A DNA stretch of 20,901 nt, taken from positions 1 through 20,901 of the IMG/VR virus record IMGVR_UViG_3300035681_000150; one strand, given 5' to 3'. The DNA comes from a virus. The position numbers and the translations under genes are program-made. Shown here piece after piece: positions 2,310-20,901 of this stretch (its first letter is position 1; every line of letters begins with the position of its first letter). The notes below the pieces were generated by a model. It was not told the DNA's origin and searched no databases. It was given only the letters and a program-made list of their open reading frames with translations.

Positions 2310-2969
2310 TTATCGCTCCTTGTAAAACTCACAAGTCTTGACCGGGCACCAACCACACAACGGGGTCGGTCTTGCAGGCCACTTGTCAGATACAAAAGCG
2401 ATTTCTAATCTCCTCAGTTCGGGTTCAAAGACAGACCAAAGTTTCGGAATGTCTTCGCGTTCATACTCTTCGGACACAAACGAATTGTGTGCAACGAACA
2501 GTAAGCCACCCTTGATGTACTCAACGTCAGGGAAATGTTCAAAGGTCATCAACGCCATCAGCTTCAACTGCTTCGGATCAGGATAGCGATTGCTGCCTGT
2601 CTTGTAGTCAACGATGTAGGCTTGTTGATAATCCGCCACGAGCAAGTCCACGATGCCACGCACCCAGTAGTCAGGTGAGTCAAAGTCGCATCGCTCCTTG
2701 TTTGCAGTCAGTGCCATCTTGTACTCGGGGTAGTGCTCACCCGGCGTGGATCTCAGCACATCCATCATCGGCTGAAACCGCTGGTAGTTCTTAGCCAACG
2801 GAGCACCGTCACGCACGTAATCTTCCAGAGCCTTGTGAACTTCCGTCCCATACATCATCTGCTCCGTGACTTTCTTCACGAAGTTTTGTTTGATCTTGAC
2901 CTCGTGATACTGCTTGGGGCAGTTGATGAAGTCCTTCAAACTACTGAATGACCATTTAACATTCGCCAT
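2310..2969 (-). CDS. Cas4/RecB-like PD-(D/E)XK nuclease with predicted 4Fe-4S cluster
   Basis: A 219-aa protein matching the RecB/Cas4 exonuclease layout. Visible residues: H45 (GTEVHKALE), E82 (PEYKMAL), D108 (RGIVDLL), D121 and K123 (IVDYKTG) and Q134 (DPKQLKLMAL), the classic H...D...DxK...Q set. Cys17 (NCPKQY) plus Cys205, Cys208 and Cys213 (CGWCPVKTC) are placed as in iron-sulfur Cas4/AddB-type nucleases. Family knowledge suggests 5'-end processing of DNA in recombination or replication. An in-frame ATG at 2993 would add 8 residues, but the ATG at 2969 has a GGTGAG SD and gives the usual KWSFSSLKDF opening. It overlaps the end of polA by 14 nt, so the two are coupled. No cas1 or cas2 is nearby, so a CRISPR role is not indicated. 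Confidence 0.9.
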   Translation of the reverse strand: MANVKWSFSSLKDFINCPKQYHEVKIKQNFVKKVTEQMMYGTEVHKALEDYVRDGAPLAKNYQRFQPMMDVLRSTPGEHYPEYKMALTANKERCDFDSPDYWVRGIVDLLVADYQQAYIVDYKTGSNRYPDPKQLKLMALMTFEHFPDVEYIKGGLLFVAHNSFVSEEYEREDIPKLWSVFEPELRRLEIAFVSDKWPARPTPLCGWCPVKTCEFYKER

Positions 2970-4818
2970 AAGACTCACCATACTTTGCTTCACACGCGAC
3001 GGGCAAGCCCTCAGCCCACGCAGGTGGCGTTGACATCACCTGAGTAATTGTCGCAAGCGCATGTTCCATATCGCTTTTTGGTGCCACGATCACAGCCGCG
3101 TCATGCACCGTCAGCACAGGGCGATAACCCTGCTTCTGAATCTCCAACATCTGCTCACCCACGATGATGCGAGCCAAAGCCTGCACCACGTTCTCGACCA
3201 TCGCGCCGCCCCAGATAGACTGGATACCTTTGCGTGAGTCGTAGATGAATCGGTCGTTACTCTTACGCAGCTTCGAGTAGCGGATATGTAATCCATTCGG
3301 CAGGCGAATCCCTTGCGGCGTGATCCACAAGCACTTGTGCTTACCGATGGAATACTCTTTGGCTCCGGTCGGCCAGCCAGACAGATGCACCAAAGCCCTG
3401 TCACACTCTTCCCACAACGCCGGGATCTTGTGGTTGGCACTGCGGTACAGATCGACGATGCGCTTGCATTCCTCTTCAGGCAGGTCAGCCCCCGGAGGTT
3501 GAGTCTTCAACGTGTGCTGAAGCTTCTTCGCTCCGGTGCCGTAGCCCAGTCCAAGGACGCAGGTCTTACCGACGAATCGCTCGACCGGGTTAGCCTTACT
3601 GATCTGCTTCTTGTAGATCTTGCTGGCAAAGATCGAATACACATCCTCGCCATCACGGAACTGCTTGACTACATCTTCTTGGCCAGCCAACCACGCAAGG
3701 ACGCGAGCCTCGATCTGCGAGGAGTCGCAGTTGATAATGACATGCTTCGGCGGAGCCACCACTGAATTCTTGAGTGCCTTCTTTCTCTTGTCTCTTGAAG
3801 GAAGGTTTTGAAAGTTGACGGCTTCCGAGCCTGCCCAACGACCCGTGTGAGCGCCGTAATACTTGAGCGGGATAGGTAACCGACCACGGTTCCTAGCACC
3901 AATATGAATAAAGCGTTCAATGCGTGACTCCTCTATGGTTGACTTGGTGCCGAGACGAACGGCACATAACTGCTGAATAAACGGATCGTCATGCTCCGTT
4001 AGCTCGATGAAACCCTCGTCATTCTTGGCGAGGGCGAATGTTTCCTTGTTCGTAGTCGGACTGATCTTGGTCGGGGGCGTGATCCCAAACTCAGTCAGAA
4101 GCGCAGCGAACTGCGGGTTGCTGGCCAACTTCTTGCGGACATCTTCTTCTGTCTCGCAGCCCAGCTTGCTCATCAGTCCAGACAACAGCGTGGACTTCTC
4201 TTGCTTGATCTCTTCAAGCCGCGTTACCAGTAACGCATCATCGACCATCAACACCGGCTGCGTGTACATCCGCAGGGTCATGTCGATCAGGTCAAGCTCG
4301 GGTGACGGGAACCCCTCTTCGAGAAGCCGAATGAAAAGCTTGTAGGTTAGGTTCACATCGTTTATGCAATATCCTGCATAACGCGCCAAGTCTTCCTTAC
4401 TGAAATCAGCGCGGCGTTTGCCTAGCGCATCGACAACTTCCGTACCTTTCTTACCGAGGCCGTACCGCTCTGCCAGCGCAGCCAACGATCCACCTGCATC
4501 GACACCGTGAATAGCCCGAGCCATGCACAGCGTATCGAAGTACTTAGCAGGTGTGATCCCGAAGTACCATGACAAGATCGCTCCATCGAACTGCATGTTG
4601 TGGCAAAGCAGTGCGGAGTTAGTCCAATCAACTTGGTTGAGCCAAGCCTTGGTCTCTTCCTTCGTACCGCTGAACCACACGGGAGCATCGTCATCAATCT
4701 TCATCGCCACGCCGATCACTTCAAAGCGTGGGTTGTTGATGTACTCCTCAGTCGTGAGCTTCTTCAGCCCGTAGTCCGGGGCATAGTAGGTTTCAAAATC
4801 TAACGTGACGAAGCTCAT
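2956..4818 (-). CDS. polA: Family A DNA polymerase with 3'-5' exonuclease domain
   Basis: A 620-aa replicative-type PolA. N-terminal proofreading domain: ExoI DFET (D7, E9), ExoII HNMQFDG (D78), ExoIII YCIND (Y150, D154), all acidic residues present. Polymerase domain: motif A CDSSQIEAR (D365), motif B R414-x3-K418-x3-L422-G-x2-YG, motif C VHDA (H572, D573). Two variations stand out. Leu422 occupies the place of E. coli Phe762, and motif C is HDA instead of HDE. There is no 5'-3' exonuclease domain, and the size fits phage PolA enzymes. The ATG at 4818 overlaps the stop of the preceding gene (ATGA), with GGAG upstream. It is the core replication enzyme of this phage, coupled to the Cas4-like nuclease downstream. 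Confidence 0.96.
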   Translation of the reverse strand: MSFVTLDFETYYAPDYGLKKLTTEEYINNPRFEVIGVAMKIDDDAPVWFSGTKEETKAWLNQVDWTNSALLCHNMQFDGAILSWYFGITPAKYFDTLCMARAIHGVDAGGSLAALAERYGLGKKGTEVVDALGKRRADFSKEDLARYAGYCINDVNLTYKLFIRLLEEGFPSPELDLIDMTLRMYTQPVLMVDDALLVTRLEEIKQEKSTLLSGLMSKLGCETEEDVRKKLASNPQFAALLTEFGITPPTKISPTTNKETFALAKNDEGFIELTEHDDPFIQQLCAVRLGTKSTIEESRIERFIHIGARNRGRLPIPLKYYGAHTGRWAGSEAVNFQNLPSRDKRKKALKNSVVAPPKHVIINCDSSQIEARVLAWLAGQEDVVKQFRDGEDVYSIFASKIYKKQISKANPVERFVGKTCVLGLGYGTGAKKLQHTLKTQPPGADLPEEECKRIVDLYRSANHKIPALWEECDRALVHLSGWPTGAKEYSIGKHKCLWITPQGIRLPNGLHIRYSKLRKSNDRFIYDSRKGIQSIWGGAMVENVVQALARIIVGEQMLEIQKQGYRPVLTVHDAAVIVAPKSDMEHALATITQVMSTPPAWAEGLPVACEAKYGESYGEC

Positions 4819-11784: not shown

Positions 11785-11805
11785 TAAGTCCGATCCATAC
11801 CGGGA

Positions 11806-12487
11806 CTTACCAAACCGTGCCACACCTAGCGTTGCCTGCGATGCCTCACCTCGCTTCGCCTCACCTTGCCTGACCGCGCCGTGCCTGCGATGCAGAACCA
11901 CACCTTGCCAAACCGAGCCATACCTGCGATGCCTTACCAGACCTTGCCCGATCTGGCCTCACCTAACCTCGCCTGCGATGCCTTACTAAACCTAACCGCG
12001 CCACACCGTACCAAGCCGAGCCTGCGATGCCTAACCAGACGCTGCGGGAACATACCGCGCCTAGCCAAACCTGCCTTGCCTCTCGCCGCCTGACCAAACG
12101 ACCCTGCGCCTCGCCTCGCCTGCGTTGCCTTACCAAACCTAACCTCACCCCGCCATACCCAGCCTAACCATGCCTGCGTTGCCTTACCAAACCCAACCTC
12201 GCCACACCTATCCATGCCTGCCTTGCCTCTCGCCGCAGAGCCAAACCAGTACGCACCTCGCCTCGCCATGCCTGCGATACCAAACCGTGCCCATCCACAC
12301 CTCGCCATGCCTGCGATGCCCTACCTTACCCAGCGTTGCCGGATCGCGCCGCGCCCGACCTTGCGAGACCGTGCCTCGCCATGCCTGCGATACCAGACCA
12401 GACCGTACCTTGCCCAACCTTCCCGAGCCGTGCCTGCCATGCCTAGTCGAGCGCAACTGCGCGATACCCGACCGAGCCTGACCTGCC
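11806..12487. repeat. Phase-locked pentanucleotide array (NNRCC)n with 4-nt register markers
   Basis: On the plus strand CC recurs every 5 bp for about 680 bp. The base before CC is nearly always a purine and the first two bases are free, so the sense (minus) strand reads GGYNN repeats. At intervals a 4-mer, TGCG or TGCC, replaces a pentamer, usually as CCTGCGATGCC. These 4-mers start at 11837, 11886, 11925, 11974, 12023, 12072, 12121, 12175, 12219, 12273, 12312, 12386, 12435 and 12484. Spacings are 49, 39, 49, 49, 49, 49, 49, 54, 44, 54, 39, 74, 49 and 49 minus none repeated beyond the 13 intervals listed by the positions: every interval equals 5n+4. A 19-bp block containing CTCTCGCCGC recurs 147 bp apart (12071 and 12218), three 49-bp units. 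It begins directly after the DUF3310 stop codon. Open frames inside it are by-products of a stop-poor repeat. Confidence 0.93.
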
Positions 12488-16673: not shown

Positions 16674-17573
16674 TTAGGCGGCTACGGCTAGCGTGGCGCG
16701 AGTCTCGCCCGTTTCGCTTGCTTGCATGATGTAGTCGCAAGCCTTTTGAGCTTCGCTCGCGGCGCGAATGATCGCCTTGCTATCGCTTTTCAATACTTTC
16801 AGCCATGAGGCGAGGTACTGAGCGTGATCGGGGCGGGGGTCATTCGTTATGCCTAGCTGAGCACATAAAAACGCCGCGCCCATTTCGGCGGCTAGTTCTT
16901 CGACGGCATAAGCTTCATCGCCGAACTTTTTGAACTTTGTAAAGCCCCGCGAAAGGCGCGACTCGTGTCCAGTCCAGTGAGTCAACTCATGTAGTGCTGT
17001 GCTGTAGTAGGCTTCCGTTGGCGAACTCGTCTCGGTTCCGATGAATGCGGCGCGCTCCGGTAAATAAATCTCGTCAGTCGAATGACGATAAAAGGCGCGG
17101 CTACCGGCATGGGTGACCTTCGCCCCCGTCGCTGTAATGACTTCGTCCGCCCGTGCTATCCGTTGCGTCAAGTCTTCGCGGGGTGCGGATGCTTCGCCCG
17201 TCTCGCCGTCTACCTGTTCGGCGTTGAAAAGATAAAAGGCGCGAGCGAACGGCGTCGCCTTAGTTTTCCCGGTAGCGTCTTCGTGCTCCGTGATGGTGTA
17301 GAAAATCCCGGCGGTAGCCTTTTCGCCCTTGCGGACTTGCGCCCCATTCGCCGCCCATTGTTTATATGTCGCCCATCGATTCGAAGCGTAGCCGTGTTGC
17401 ATACCGGCCACCCATAACGTGAGGATGTTCGAGCCGCGGTACTTCGCCCCGGTAATAGCGTTGCATGGGATATCGTTCGCCGTGCTCGCTCGATGCCACG
17501 GCATTCGGAACTCTCCCGCGCCTTGCTCGATTGCGTTGATGATGTTGGCCGTCACTGTTTCGTAGATGTTCAT
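16674..17573 (-). CDS. ardC: ArdC-like anti-restriction protein with zinc metallopeptidase motif
   Basis: A 299-aa protein with the two-domain ArdC layout. About 1-120: the ssDNA-binding N-terminal domain (MNIYETVTANIINAIEQG, MPWHR, YRGSNILTLW, WATYKQWAANGAQVRKGEK). About 140-299: the metallopeptidase domain with HELTHWTGH (HExxH, His195, Glu196, His199) and EELAAEMGAAFLC (226-238), the usual third zinc ligand region. Known members protect incoming DNA from restriction. The ATG at 17573 has GGA about 13 nt away in the shared GGAAAAAGCAT leader; upstream in-frame sequence overlaps the preceding gene and is rejected. Its place near the start of the leftward early operon fits expression soon after DNA entry. 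Confidence 0.9.
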   Translation of the reverse strand: MNIYETVTANIINAIEQGAGEFRMPWHRASTANDIPCNAITGAKYRGSNILTLWVAGMQHGYASNRWATYKQWAANGAQVRKGEKATAGIFYTITEHEDATGKTKATPFARAFYLFNAEQVDGETGEASAPREDLTQRIARADEVITATGAKVTHAGSRAFYRHSTDEIYLPERAAFIGTETSSPTEAYYSTALHELTHWTGHESRLSRGFTKFKKFGDEAYAVEELAAEMGAAFLCAQLGITNDPRPDHAQYLASWLKVLKSDSKAIIRAASEAQKACDYIMQASETGETRATLAVAA

Positions 17574-17604
17574 GGTTATGCTTTTTCCGTGTGGTGTGGA
17601 TTGG

Positions 17605-17697
17605 TTAGGCAATGGCCGCGAAAATGAAAAACAGCGGCGGGGCGGTGATCAGGAAAAGCCAGAAAAAAATCTCGGGGGCGTGGTTTCGCTTGCTCAT
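17605..17697 (-). CDS. Single-span membrane micro-protein, 30 aa
   Basis: ATG at 17697 with GAGGG 9 nt upstream. Residues 1-9 are polar and basic (MSKRNHAPE), and the rest is one continuous hydrophobic span (IFFWLFLITAPPLFFIFAAI). It starts 3 nt after the stop of the 57-aa membrane gene. Size and composition suit a small inner-membrane protein such as a superinfection or host-membrane modifier. A holin is less likely in an early operon. Confidence 0.62.
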   Translation of the reverse strand: MSKRNHAPEIFFWLFLITAPPLFFIFAAIA

Positions 17698-17890: not shown

Positions 17891-18082
17891 TTAGGCTTGA
17901 ACATCTGAGGCGATGTAGTGCTCGGACAATTCCGGCAAGGTTTTATCGAATCGAATCCGGGCGGCGTCGATCGCTTCCGGTGCGGTTGCAGCTTCAACCT
18001 TGAAGCCGAAAATATCAGGCTTCCCGAGATTCCCGGCGGGTGCGGTTGAGCGCGGCGAAAAGGTGACTAGATACTTTTTCAT
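17891..18082 (-). CDS. First gene of the leftward operon, unknown
   Basis: A 63-aa protein opening MKKYLVTFSPRSTAPAGNLG, then FGFKVEAATAPEAIDAAR, the same strand-then-helix plan as the DpnD/PcfM-like protein at 14998-15195. ATG at 18082 with CCGGAG 5 nt upstream. It is the promoter-proximal gene of the operon containing ArdC. Specific function unknown. Confidence 0.72.
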   Translation of the reverse strand: MKKYLVTFSPRSTAPAGNLGKPDIFGFKVEAATAPEAIDAARIRFDKTLPELSEHYIASDVQA

Positions 18083-18260: not shown

Positions 18261-18269
18261 TGTGGATAT
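18261..18269 (-). promoter_or_regulatory. Near-consensus DnaA box
   Basis: Plus strand TGTGGATAT, i.e. ATATCCACA on the minus strand, is one mismatch from the consensus TTATCCACA. It lies between the small pentamer array and the first TTGTTCCAG repeat. One 9-mer alone could be chance; the setting raises its value. Confidence 0.4.
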
Positions 18270-18284
18270 CTGACTGGCGGGGTT

Positions 18285-18772
18285 TTGTTCCAGAGCCGGG
18301 TCTAGTTTTGTTCCAGTTGTTCCAGAGGGGCGAAAATGCTGGAACAGAAAAAGTCTAATAAAATCAACGGGTTAGGCTTAGGCTTGTTCCAGAGTTTGTA
18401 CCGGGATTTTTGTACTATGGAACGGCGAAACGGCGAGGGGGGCGACGTAACTTGTTGTTTTTATTAGAATTGATTGATAATAAGTAAAGAGAAAAAAGAG
18501 AGAAAAAAGGGATTTTTGAAAAACGAACGGGTTTCAAATTATTTTCGAGCTTTTTAACGCGCCGCGCTCCCTTGCTTCGCTCTCCCGATTTTTGCGCGAT
18601 TCTGCCGGGCTACCCCTCGTTTTTGCTGGAACACTGGAACAAGCCTAAAAAAACGGCGTTTTTCCTTTTAAAATCAAACACTTGCGCTGTTCCAATTTCT
18701 TTGATCATCTGGAACAAGCCCGGAACAAGCCTAAAAAAGCCAATATAATCAATGCCCCTCGCCTTGTTCCAC
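18285..18772. repeat. TTGTTCCAG nonamer cluster (putative origin iterons or packaging site)
   Basis: Eleven copies or near-copies. Forward: 18285, 18308, 18317, 18384, 18687 (CTGTTCCAA), 18764 (TTGTTCCAC). Reverse: 18339, 18626, 18634, 18709, 18720 (CCGGAACAA). Two pairs are direct tandem repeats (18308/18317 and 18626/18634). A longer form TTAGGCTTGTTCC at 18378 is exactly inverted at 18636 and 18722. Forward copies dominate the left side and reverse copies the right side of an AT-rich centre, giving overall dyad symmetry. There is no gene here. Confidence 0.85.
18449..18560. other. AT-rich stretch with homopurine run (candidate unwinding element)
   Basis: Notably A/T-rich compared with the C/G-rich flanks, including a 27-nt all-purine run at 18486-18512 and several TTTTT/AAAAA tracts. 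It is centred between the left and right groups of TTGTTCCAG repeats, which is the arrangement expected of a duplex-opening region, though it could simply be a flexible spacer. Confidence 0.5.
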
Positions 18773-18988: not shown

Positions 18989-19154
18989 TCTAGGCCAGAC
19001 CCTACCCGCCCCGTACCCCCCGCTGTCAGGCTGAGACTCCGCGCTCGCCCCGCCCCGCTTTGATCCACACAAATCACCACGCATTTTTTAAAATCTGGCT
19101 GGGCCGACCCCACCCCCTCGCTATAAAACACCCCCCGGTATCCAATTTGGTACC

Positions 19155-19736
19155 ATGCCCAAAATTCGTATATATTTCGCAACAATGCAGCCACTGGTCC
19201 CTGACATCGAAGAGAACCTTGCTCTCCCGGCAAACGCGGCTGAGGCGCTACCGGACTTGTCCCCGGCTGAAGAACTGGACATGCGGGCTAGAACCATCAA
19301 GTTCATATCGGACGTATCGAGCCAGCCCATCATCCCGAACGAGTCTGACAGCGCGTCCGCACAAGAATTGGCCCGCAAGATGATCAAAGACCCCAAGGCC
19401 AGACCAGATTTTGCCAAGTATCCGAACGAGGCCATCGCGTTGTATGCAGGGTTAGCTGCCCGGTACAACCACATGATTGTGGAAGAGCTATCTGACCTGA
19501 AGCTCTACGTGGTGAATAAGCTGTTTGAGGCTGCGGAGCAGGCAGATGACCTGAAAACGCGCATCAATGCCCTCAAAGCCTTGGGCGAAGTGGACGGGAT
19601 TGACGCCTTTAAGAAGCGTAGCGAGGTCACGCACATCATCAAGCCGATTGAGGAAGTGGAGAAGGAGCTTCTCTCGGTGCTGGAAGGCATTGAATATACG
19701 GTGGTCACTGAAGAAAACGGTGCATCACGTGGGTGA
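19155..19736 (+). CDS. terS: Putative terminase small subunit
   Basis: A 193-aa, largely helical protein directly upstream of the large terminase in the same strand and operon. A disordered acidic N-terminus leads to helices (PDLSPAEELDMRARTIKFI, ASAQELARKMIKDPKARPDF, AIALYAGLAARYNHMIVEEL) and an acidic tail. The role is inferred mostly from position: small terminase subunits bind the packaging site and regulate TerL. No clear helix-turn-helix is visible. An ATG at 19185 (MQPLVPDIEENL) is an alternative start; neither has a good SD. First gene of the rightward late operon. Confidence 0.65.
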   Translation: MPKIRIYFATMQPLVPDIEENLALPANAAEALPDLSPAEELDMRARTIKFISDVSSQPIIPNESDSASAQELARKMIKDPKARPDFAKYPNEAIALYAGLAARYNHMIVEELSDLKLYVVNKLFEAAEQADDLKTRINALKALGEVDGIDAFKKRSEVTHIIKPIEEVEKELLSVLEGIEYTVVTEENGASRG

Positions 19737-19737
19737 T

Positions 19738-19947
19738 GTGGTTGGATTCAAGGGGAAGAAGTCAAAAAAGGCTGTTGAAGCCGAGGAAGAAGTAGCTATC
19801 GTGGCCTGCGGGAACTGCGAACAGCCTACTTTCTATCTTTCAACAGATGGCAGGGTGTTTTGTGAAGAGTGTTTGTACCCCGTTGCTGCACTCTGGACTC
19901 AAACAGACGAACAACTTAACCCAGATCCGCCGCTCCCCGCCGTATGA
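19738..19947 (+). CDS. Zinc-ribbon mini-protein between terminase genes
   Basis: 69 aa from a GTG at 19738, just after the TerS-like stop (TGATGTG), ending in a 4-nt ATGA overlap with terL. A Lys-rich N-terminus (VGFKGKKSKK) and an acidic patch precede two CxxC pairs (CGNC at 24-27, CEEC at 42-45), a zinc ribbon. The longer open frame begins well inside the TerS-like gene and is rejected; GTGs at 19720 and 19729 are other possible starts. A packaging accessory role is inferred from position only. Confidence 0.65.
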   Translation: MVGFKGKKSKKAVEAEEEVAIVACGNCEQPTFYLSTDGRVFCEECLYPVAALWTQTDEQLNPDPPLPAV

Positions 19948-20901
19948 GCCTGCAACTCACACCTGACAAGCTGCAAAAGCTGAAAGCCGCCCTGCCGACG
20001 ATGCCGGACAAGGAGAAACGGCGCGTTGCTGAGCTATTAAAGAACTATCAGCAGCAGATTACGCAGGCCAAGGGCAAGGAATCGTTCCTCGACTTCATCA
20101 ATCATGTGTATCCGGGCTACAAAGTGGGTCCGCATCACCGTCGCCTAGCCAAGATCTTCGAGGAAATTGCGTTGGGTAAGAAGAAGCGGGTCATCGTCAA
20201 CATCGCTCCGCGTCACGGTAAGTCGGAGATGATCAGTTACCTTGCTCCGGCGTGGTTTCTAGGCAAGTTTCCCCAGAAGAAGGTCATCATGGCGTCCCAC
20301 ACCGCAGACTTGGCGGTGAACTTCGGTCGTCGGGTGCGTAATTTGGTGGGAGCGGAGAACTATCGTGACATTTTCCCCCAAGTTGAGCTTCAGGCCGACT
20401 CTAAATCTGCTTCTCGATGGGGTACTAATTTTAACGGCGAGTATTTTGCTATCGGTGTTGGCGGTGCTCTTGCTGGTCGAGGCGCTGATCTGTTCATTAT
20501 TGATGATCCCCACTCAGAACAGGAAGCTAAACAAGGTCGCGCAGACGTTTTTGAACCGGCTTGGGAATGGTTCCAGTCAGGCCCGGTCCAGCGATTAATG
20601 CCGGGTGGCGCGATCATCGTCGTGATGACGCGGTGGAGCAAGATGGACCTGACCGGCAAGATCGTGGATCACATGACCCGCGAAGAAGGGGCAGACCAGT
20701 GGGAGGTCGTAGAGTTCCCGGCCATCCTCAACGAGAAACCGCTTTGGCCTGAGTTCTGGGGCATTGACGAGTTGCTGGCAAAAAAGGCCAGCATGGATGT
20801 GCGGTATTGGCAGGCCCAGTACATGCAGCAGCCGACCTCGGAGGAAGGCGCTCTTATTAAAAGAGAGTGGTGGCAGGTGTGGGAGCCAGAGAACCCCCCT
20901 C
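19944..20901 (+). CDS. terL: Terminase large subunit (partial, runs off window)
   Basis: ATG at 19944, open for 319 codons to the window edge. It carries the packaging ATPase motifs: Walker A IAPRHGKSEM (A88-P-R-H-G-K-S94), Walker B LFIIDDPHS (D187, D188), coupling motif VVMTRWSK (227-233), plus a basic N-terminal helix (residues 9-45). TerL pumps phage DNA into the procapsid; the nuclease domain would lie downstream, although YWQAQYMQQPTSEEG near the edge already resembles the linker before it. ATGA overlap with the zinc-ribbon gene. This gene fixes the phage identity of the window. Confidence 0.95.
   Translation, partial: MSLQLTPDKLQKLKAALPTMPDKEKRRVAELLKNYQQQITQAKGKESFLDFINHVYPGYKVGPHHRRLAKIFEEIALGKKKRVIVNIAPRHGKSEMISYLAPAWFLGKFPQKKVIMASHTADLAVNFGRRVRNLVGAENYRDIFPQVELQADSKSASRWGTNFNGEYFAIGVGGALAGRGADLFIIDDPHSEQEAKQGRADVFEPAWEWFQSGPVQRLMPGGAIIVVMTRWSKMDLTGKIVDHMTREEGADQWEVVEFPAILNEKPLWPEFWGIDELLAKKASMDVRYWQAQYMQQPTSEEGALIKREWWQVWEPENPP

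Follow-up and report, generated by a model that had tools for sequence, protein, structure and literature searches.

The window (here the whole stretch of DNA that was analysed, an entire IMG/VR virus record of 20,901 bases that is itself a fragment) contains a repeat array that we consider to be probably a phage replication origin of the iteron type with its own unwinding element, bound by a phage-encoded protein for which a small helix-turn-helix (HTH) protein appears the likeliest candidate. We infer origin activity from the anatomy of the region: iteron-like repeats, a unique melting minimum, the phage's own replication genes and a helicase related to Cch together fit an iteron origin. No description of the array was found in the literature searched.

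Results

A nonamer array around the weakest duplex of the window

Ten copies of TGTTCCA and one of TGTTCCG, eleven in all, lie within 18285-18772 (Table 1). The nonamer TTGTTCCAG, at up to one mismatch, occurs 14 times in the window, ten of them inside the 488-bp array, while whole-window shuffles held a mean of 5.1 and never 14; the top 7-mer cluster per 500 bp numbers 10 in the window versus 3-5 in 100 first-order Markov sequences. The repeat cluster that the first-pass annotation had described is therefore real and goes well beyond what randomised windows contain. Its description of the surroundings was also borne out, in that four of the five left copies are forward and four of the six right copies reverse, and the divergent region is free of convincing genes among the open reading frames of the window, from the start of the leftward frame at 18082 to that of the rightward terS-like gene at 19155. 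Searches for Rfam matches and tRNAs gave none. A second motif, AAGTNNTTGATT (AAGTGTTTGATT in the window), is rare in the rest of the contig and may be a second binding site.

Table 1. Coordinates of the array and of neighbouring features in the window
Feature	Position	Strand	Remarks
Family A DNA polymerase	2956..4818	-	Leftward block
First gene of leftward block	17891..18082	-	63 aa, hypothetical
Exact TTGTTCCAG	18285+, 18308+, 18317+, 18384+, 18634-, 18709-		Sequence match
One-mismatch copies of TTGTTCCAG	18339-, 18626-, 18720-, 18764+		Sequence match
Further TGTTCCA	18688+		Brings the array to eleven
Left cluster of putative iterons	18285..18392	+	Nonamers 18285+, 18308+, 18317+, 18339-, 18384+; cluster kept in relatives
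AT-rich segment, proposed DNA unwinding element	18457..18556	.	Least stable 100 bp of the window
Right abutting reverse-nonamer pair	18626..18642	-	8 bp apart; conserved '--' pair
Second motif, AAGTNNTTGATT (window version AAGTGTTTGATT)	18672..18683	-	1-4 copies per array
Right cluster of putative iterons	18687..18772	.	18688+, 18709-, 18720- (TTGTTCCGG), 18764+; order same in relatives
Conserved non-coding element	19058..19157	+	~100 bp, directly upstream of terS-like gene; separate from array
terS-like gene	19155..19736	+	193 aa; present in all relatives; assigned by position, without a profile match
Terminase large subunit (terL)	19944..20900	+	Incomplete at window end

The AT-rich centre proposed in the first-pass annotation coincides with the lowest duplex stability in the window. 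This is not peculiar to one record: by nearest-neighbour energies, the AT-rich centre of the array is the weakest 100 bp of the contig in 11 of the 11 contigs in which an array was located, namely the window and ten relatives of 36-63 kb (longest 62.6 kb). We regard this as the strongest single argument that the segment would be an unwinding element and not merely intergenic DNA. TAG-type runs occur in the centre of 8 of the 11 arrays and are absent from the window's own.

The layout is fixed among relatives and the motif drifts

Relatives were gathered by terL, and 80 loci were kept, all ~90-100% identical in terL; among isolates, no near DNA match to the window itself was found. Those reaching far enough upstream have the array 1.2-3.1 kb before terL and, in every case, 0.4-2 kb upstream of the terS-like gene; more than 30 IMG/VR relatives have it at the same place and in one layout. 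Some lineages lack the exact heptamer, and in these a de novo search returned another repeat at the same place and in the same arrangement. All of the motifs share TTGT, which is followed according to lineage by TCCAG, TCCA(A), TCCG, GCC(A/G), GTCAG, GCAG, TCT(A/G), ACGCT or ACGG. The arrays open with forward copies, followed by the AT-rich segment and, in most cases, by another one or two copies in forward orientation; ~115-125 bp further on come two or three reverse copies spaced 8 bp apart, a single forward copy and again two or three reverse copies. The forward pair immediately to the right of the AT-rich segment is missing from the window's lineage. Counted from the weakest 60 bp of each of 34 arrays, copies on the left are 101 forward and 19 reverse and those on the right 74 forward and 156 reverse, figures that describe the arrays and are not 34 independent tests because the arrays are related. 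The most frequent spacing in these 34 arrays is 8 between two reverse copies. In the seven long contigs the array is the motif's only dense cluster, which answers the concern in the first-pass annotation that the nonamer might be comparably dense elsewhere. The array is absent from four distant isolates with a related terL.

Two further kinds of repeat were seen near terS. Tandem repeats of 9-18 bp (e.g. GACCCGCCT, TGTCCGCC...) lie between array and terS in L306 (G030), L064 (G008), L069, L079, L087 and L354. In Pelagibacter phage HTVC023P (L380 3378-3470), direct repeats of ACTAGGAAA occupy a divergent non-coding region upstream of the annotated terS, possibly a similarly built origin that uses another repeat.

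Genes around the array

Synteny holds across eight records, the window and the seven long contigs. Leftward of the array come small genes and then a block encoding the family A polymerase, a PD-(D/E)XK nuclease and a SNF2-type helicase, all three of which are in the window. Beyond the window start, relatives encode an HTH protein of 103 aa and, immediately after it, a primase-helicase of 938-961 aa; the two genes adjoin in all seven contigs first compared. The HTH gene lies 18-20 kb left of the array and the primase-helicase 19-21 kb from it in six of seven contigs, with the latter at the other contig end in G004.

Within the leftward block, an ArdC-type protein (ArdcN plus zincin-like metallopeptidase domain, 16674-17612) is near the array in the window's lineage only, and other lineages have unrelated genes in its place. 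At 11800-12480, C-rich degenerate tandem repeats of ~39 bp (CCATGCCTGCGATACC...) lie in a stretch without a convincing gene.

Between array and terS-like gene, the element in Table 1 (CACACAAATCACC ... GACCCCACCCCCT ... ACACCCCCCGGT ... GGTACCATGC) is kept in most relatives, even those with a drifted iteron; a packaging site, a late promoter or a leader are all possible identities. In many IMG/VR contigs the sequence breaks off in this element or close to it, 0-310 bp before the terS-like gene and not at one fixed position (L232, L233, L236, L239, L243, L248, L254, L259, L281, L296 and others have their first bases there), and these ends may be either assembly breaks or a genome terminus.

DnaA boxes and GC skew

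Is the array a DnaA-dependent oriC? The first-pass annotation had placed a DnaA box at its left edge, and a one-mismatch site does exist at 18261-18269, but such sites occur at chance level and are not conserved. The exact box TTATNCACA is absent from the window; one-mismatch boxes, including those near the array at 18249- and 18261-, number 15 in the window where 11.8 are expected, and DnaA boxes are not conserved in the relatives. We consequently rejected the DnaA box. Of the original proposal, then, an iteron origin with its unwinding region stands as the best-supported reading, given a layout common to more than 30 relatives and centred on the weakest duplex of each contig tested, and a role of host DnaA is not supported.

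The GC-skew comparison that had been proposed alongside it was run and does not discriminate. In most long contigs the cumulative skew has its minimum near the array, which is also the point at which gene directions diverge. The contigs of four relatives (61-63 kb) were rotated to the array; their skew changes back at ~39 kb together with gene direction and not at the antipode at ~31 kb. Since the sign of the skew tracks the direction of transcription, we dropped skew as independent evidence for an origin.

Two candidate binders

The model of the HTH protein is of high confidence (pLDDT 95), with a recognition helix at 47-54. The structures closest to it are XRE or lambda-repressor-like domains, with Z up to 6.9 and E-values above 0.1, so that these matches indicate a fold class only. 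No match to the protein was found in the annotated phage records searched; one scan of bacterial genome contigs returned no relatives, and hence no host. The primase-helicase, whose gene in relatives lies outside the window, combines primase-like N-terminal matches with a DUF927 helicase whose relatives include Cch, the replicative helicase of SCCmec (5dgk, E 1e-10; NF047345); the model of the whole protein is of low confidence (pLDDT 64).

If one of these proteins reads the nonamer, do its residues change with the motif? For covariation we used 34 genomes in which an array and an HTH gene were both present. HTH residue 47 is R in all genomes with TCC, GCC, GTC and GCA motifs; the ACG lineage has K at this position, and two of the four TCT genomes have P. 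We rejected residue 47 as a unique motif-tracking column, its association with the motif (adjusted mutual information) being equalled by that of a helicase column and confounded with clade. In the closest pairs with a changed motif, residues 57 and 62 are the sole changes in the 22-aa recognition segment: they are R/N in G001 (TTGTTCCAG), G/G and G/S in G012 and G013 (TTGTGTCAG) and S/D in G006 (a TTGTGCC-TTGTTCC mix), and in a second lineage R/N in G016-G018 (TTGTTCCAG) versus A/D in G022 (TTGTTCCG). G001 and G016, which have TTGTTCCAG in common, both keep R/N at an identity of only ~76%. G007 is an exception, with TTGTTCCG and Q57, a residue also common to the ACGC and ACGG lineages. By pairwise partial correlation, residue 57 ranks 6th of 880 columns among 31 distinct genomes, 34th of 785 for closer pairs only and 20th of 965 in the three-protein set. 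The top column among the 31 genomes is HTH 76, which is not obviously a DNA contact; for closer pairs only, helicase columns lead, and helicase columns rank as high as HTH ones. Set against columns of the terS-like protein and of the primase-helicase, the HTH protein does not stand out firmly, and we regard the covariation as suggestive, not decisive. In our view the HTH protein is the likelier binder of the array, with the C-terminal domain of the helicase as the main alternative.

Discussion

How might such an origin work? We propose that about eleven asymmetric nonamers would serve as iterons for a phage-encoded protein, most likely the 103-aa XRE-fold HTH protein with one monomer per nonamer. 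Protein seated on both sides of the AT-rich segment would wrap or strain the DNA until that segment opened, the phage primase-helicase would then be recruited or loaded, and the family A polymerase of the phage would start synthesis. Most proteins with an XRE fold regulate transcription, which counts against the HTH protein as an origin binder.

The alternative that survives best overlaps with this scheme and differs in the binder alone: the origin would be the same, the reader of its iterons would be the primase-helicase, through its C-terminal domain, and the XRE protein would be an accessory or a regulator. There is precedent in SaPI and SCCmec elements, where the origin immediately follows the helicase gene and the iterons are read by the C-terminal domains of the helicases, Rep in SaPI and Cch/Cch2 in SCCmec (PMC7581432). 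The relationship of the phage helicase to Cch agrees with such a role, several of its C-terminal columns equal HTH columns in how well they covary with the motif, and its C-terminal helix and strand elements are compatible with a winged helix, although in a model of low to medium confidence that gives a hint only. However, between G016 and G022, which have different motifs, the C-terminal part of the helicase is 89% identical and the rest 86%, with the changes scattered, and the gene is 19-21 kb from the array instead of adjoining it as in SaPI and SCC elements. We therefore think it rather unlikely that the helicase domain is the reader.

A second alternative is that the array is a transcription switch, in which the nonamers would be operators from which an XRE-type regulator controls two divergent promoters, one for the leftward replication block and one for the rightward terminase block, and the AT-rich centre would be promoter DNA. 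The predicted XRE fold of the candidate binder fits such a switch, as does the position of the array between two divergent gene blocks, and the region contains promoter-like matches, though no more than shuffled sequences do. Yet some eleven sites over 490 bp, in a fixed dyad-like layout around the weakest duplex, go beyond the needs of a simple operator, and none of the seven long contigs has a second dense cluster, the HTH gene included, so we hold this explanation to be unlikely. That the array is a packaging site (pac or cosB-like), to which a terminase component would bind ahead of cleavage close to terS, is very improbable. In its favour, the array precedes the terS-like gene in all relatives, contig ends accumulate in the interval between the two, and the HTH protein gave a single, very weak match to a profile of terminase small subunits (E 0.012). 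Against it, those ends are 0-310 bp from terS and fall in the separate conserved element, outside the array; the motif is not tracked by the terS-like protein, whose mean column association of 0.07 is the lowest of the three proteins; and a melting element is not expected at such a site.

Returning to the replication origin, it is instructive to set the array beside known ones. In the lambdoid ori, iterons lie beside an AT-rich unwinding region inside the O gene; the array has the same juxtaposition, but it is non-coding and its candidate initiator genes are at least 18 kb away in relatives. In bacterial oriC, repeats bound by DnaA flank an AT-rich element; the array is likewise flanked, and the TAG-type runs in 8 of 11 arrays recall DnaA-trios, whereas DnaA boxes are not above chance in the window, none is conserved and the window's array is without a TAG run. 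With SaPI and SCCmec the array shares an initiator-type helicase (DUF927 in Cch and here) and short repeats at the origin, but differs in the distance of the candidate origin from the helicase gene and in having a separate HTH protein as leading candidate. Because it has neither the location features of the SaPI/SCC and lambda origins nor the DnaA boxes of oriC, we file the array as a putative variant of iteron origins. In the Vibrio cholerae satellite PLE, the origin contains three iterons, semi-palindromic and ~30 bp long, and the initiator is of the RepA_N type; between PLE lineages the iteron sequence and the DNA-binding domain of RepA covary, with cognate specificity shown (PMC8263062). 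Like those of PLE, the repeats here are non-coding; unlike PLE, there are about eleven asymmetric nonamers and the candidate binder has an XRE fold.

Do these phages then represent an origin class in its own right? We offer as a tentative possibility, and a more doubtful one than the origin itself, that there is a class of phage origins recognised by a small stand-alone XRE-fold protein and not by Rep, a DnaA-like protein or a helicase domain, with 8-15 nonamers of a fixed TTGT half and a drifting half, and that the origins of related phages would be mutually incompatible.

If our reading is correct, a phage group that is known here from metagenomes alone gains an origin together with a candidate for the protein that recognises it, and the drifted motifs on a fixed layout form a natural test set for how origin specificity changes. 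In PLE, such changes in specificity can matter in the conflict between mobile elements (PMC8263062). In the phages studied here, the repeat alone could keep apart related phages, or parasites that target their origins.
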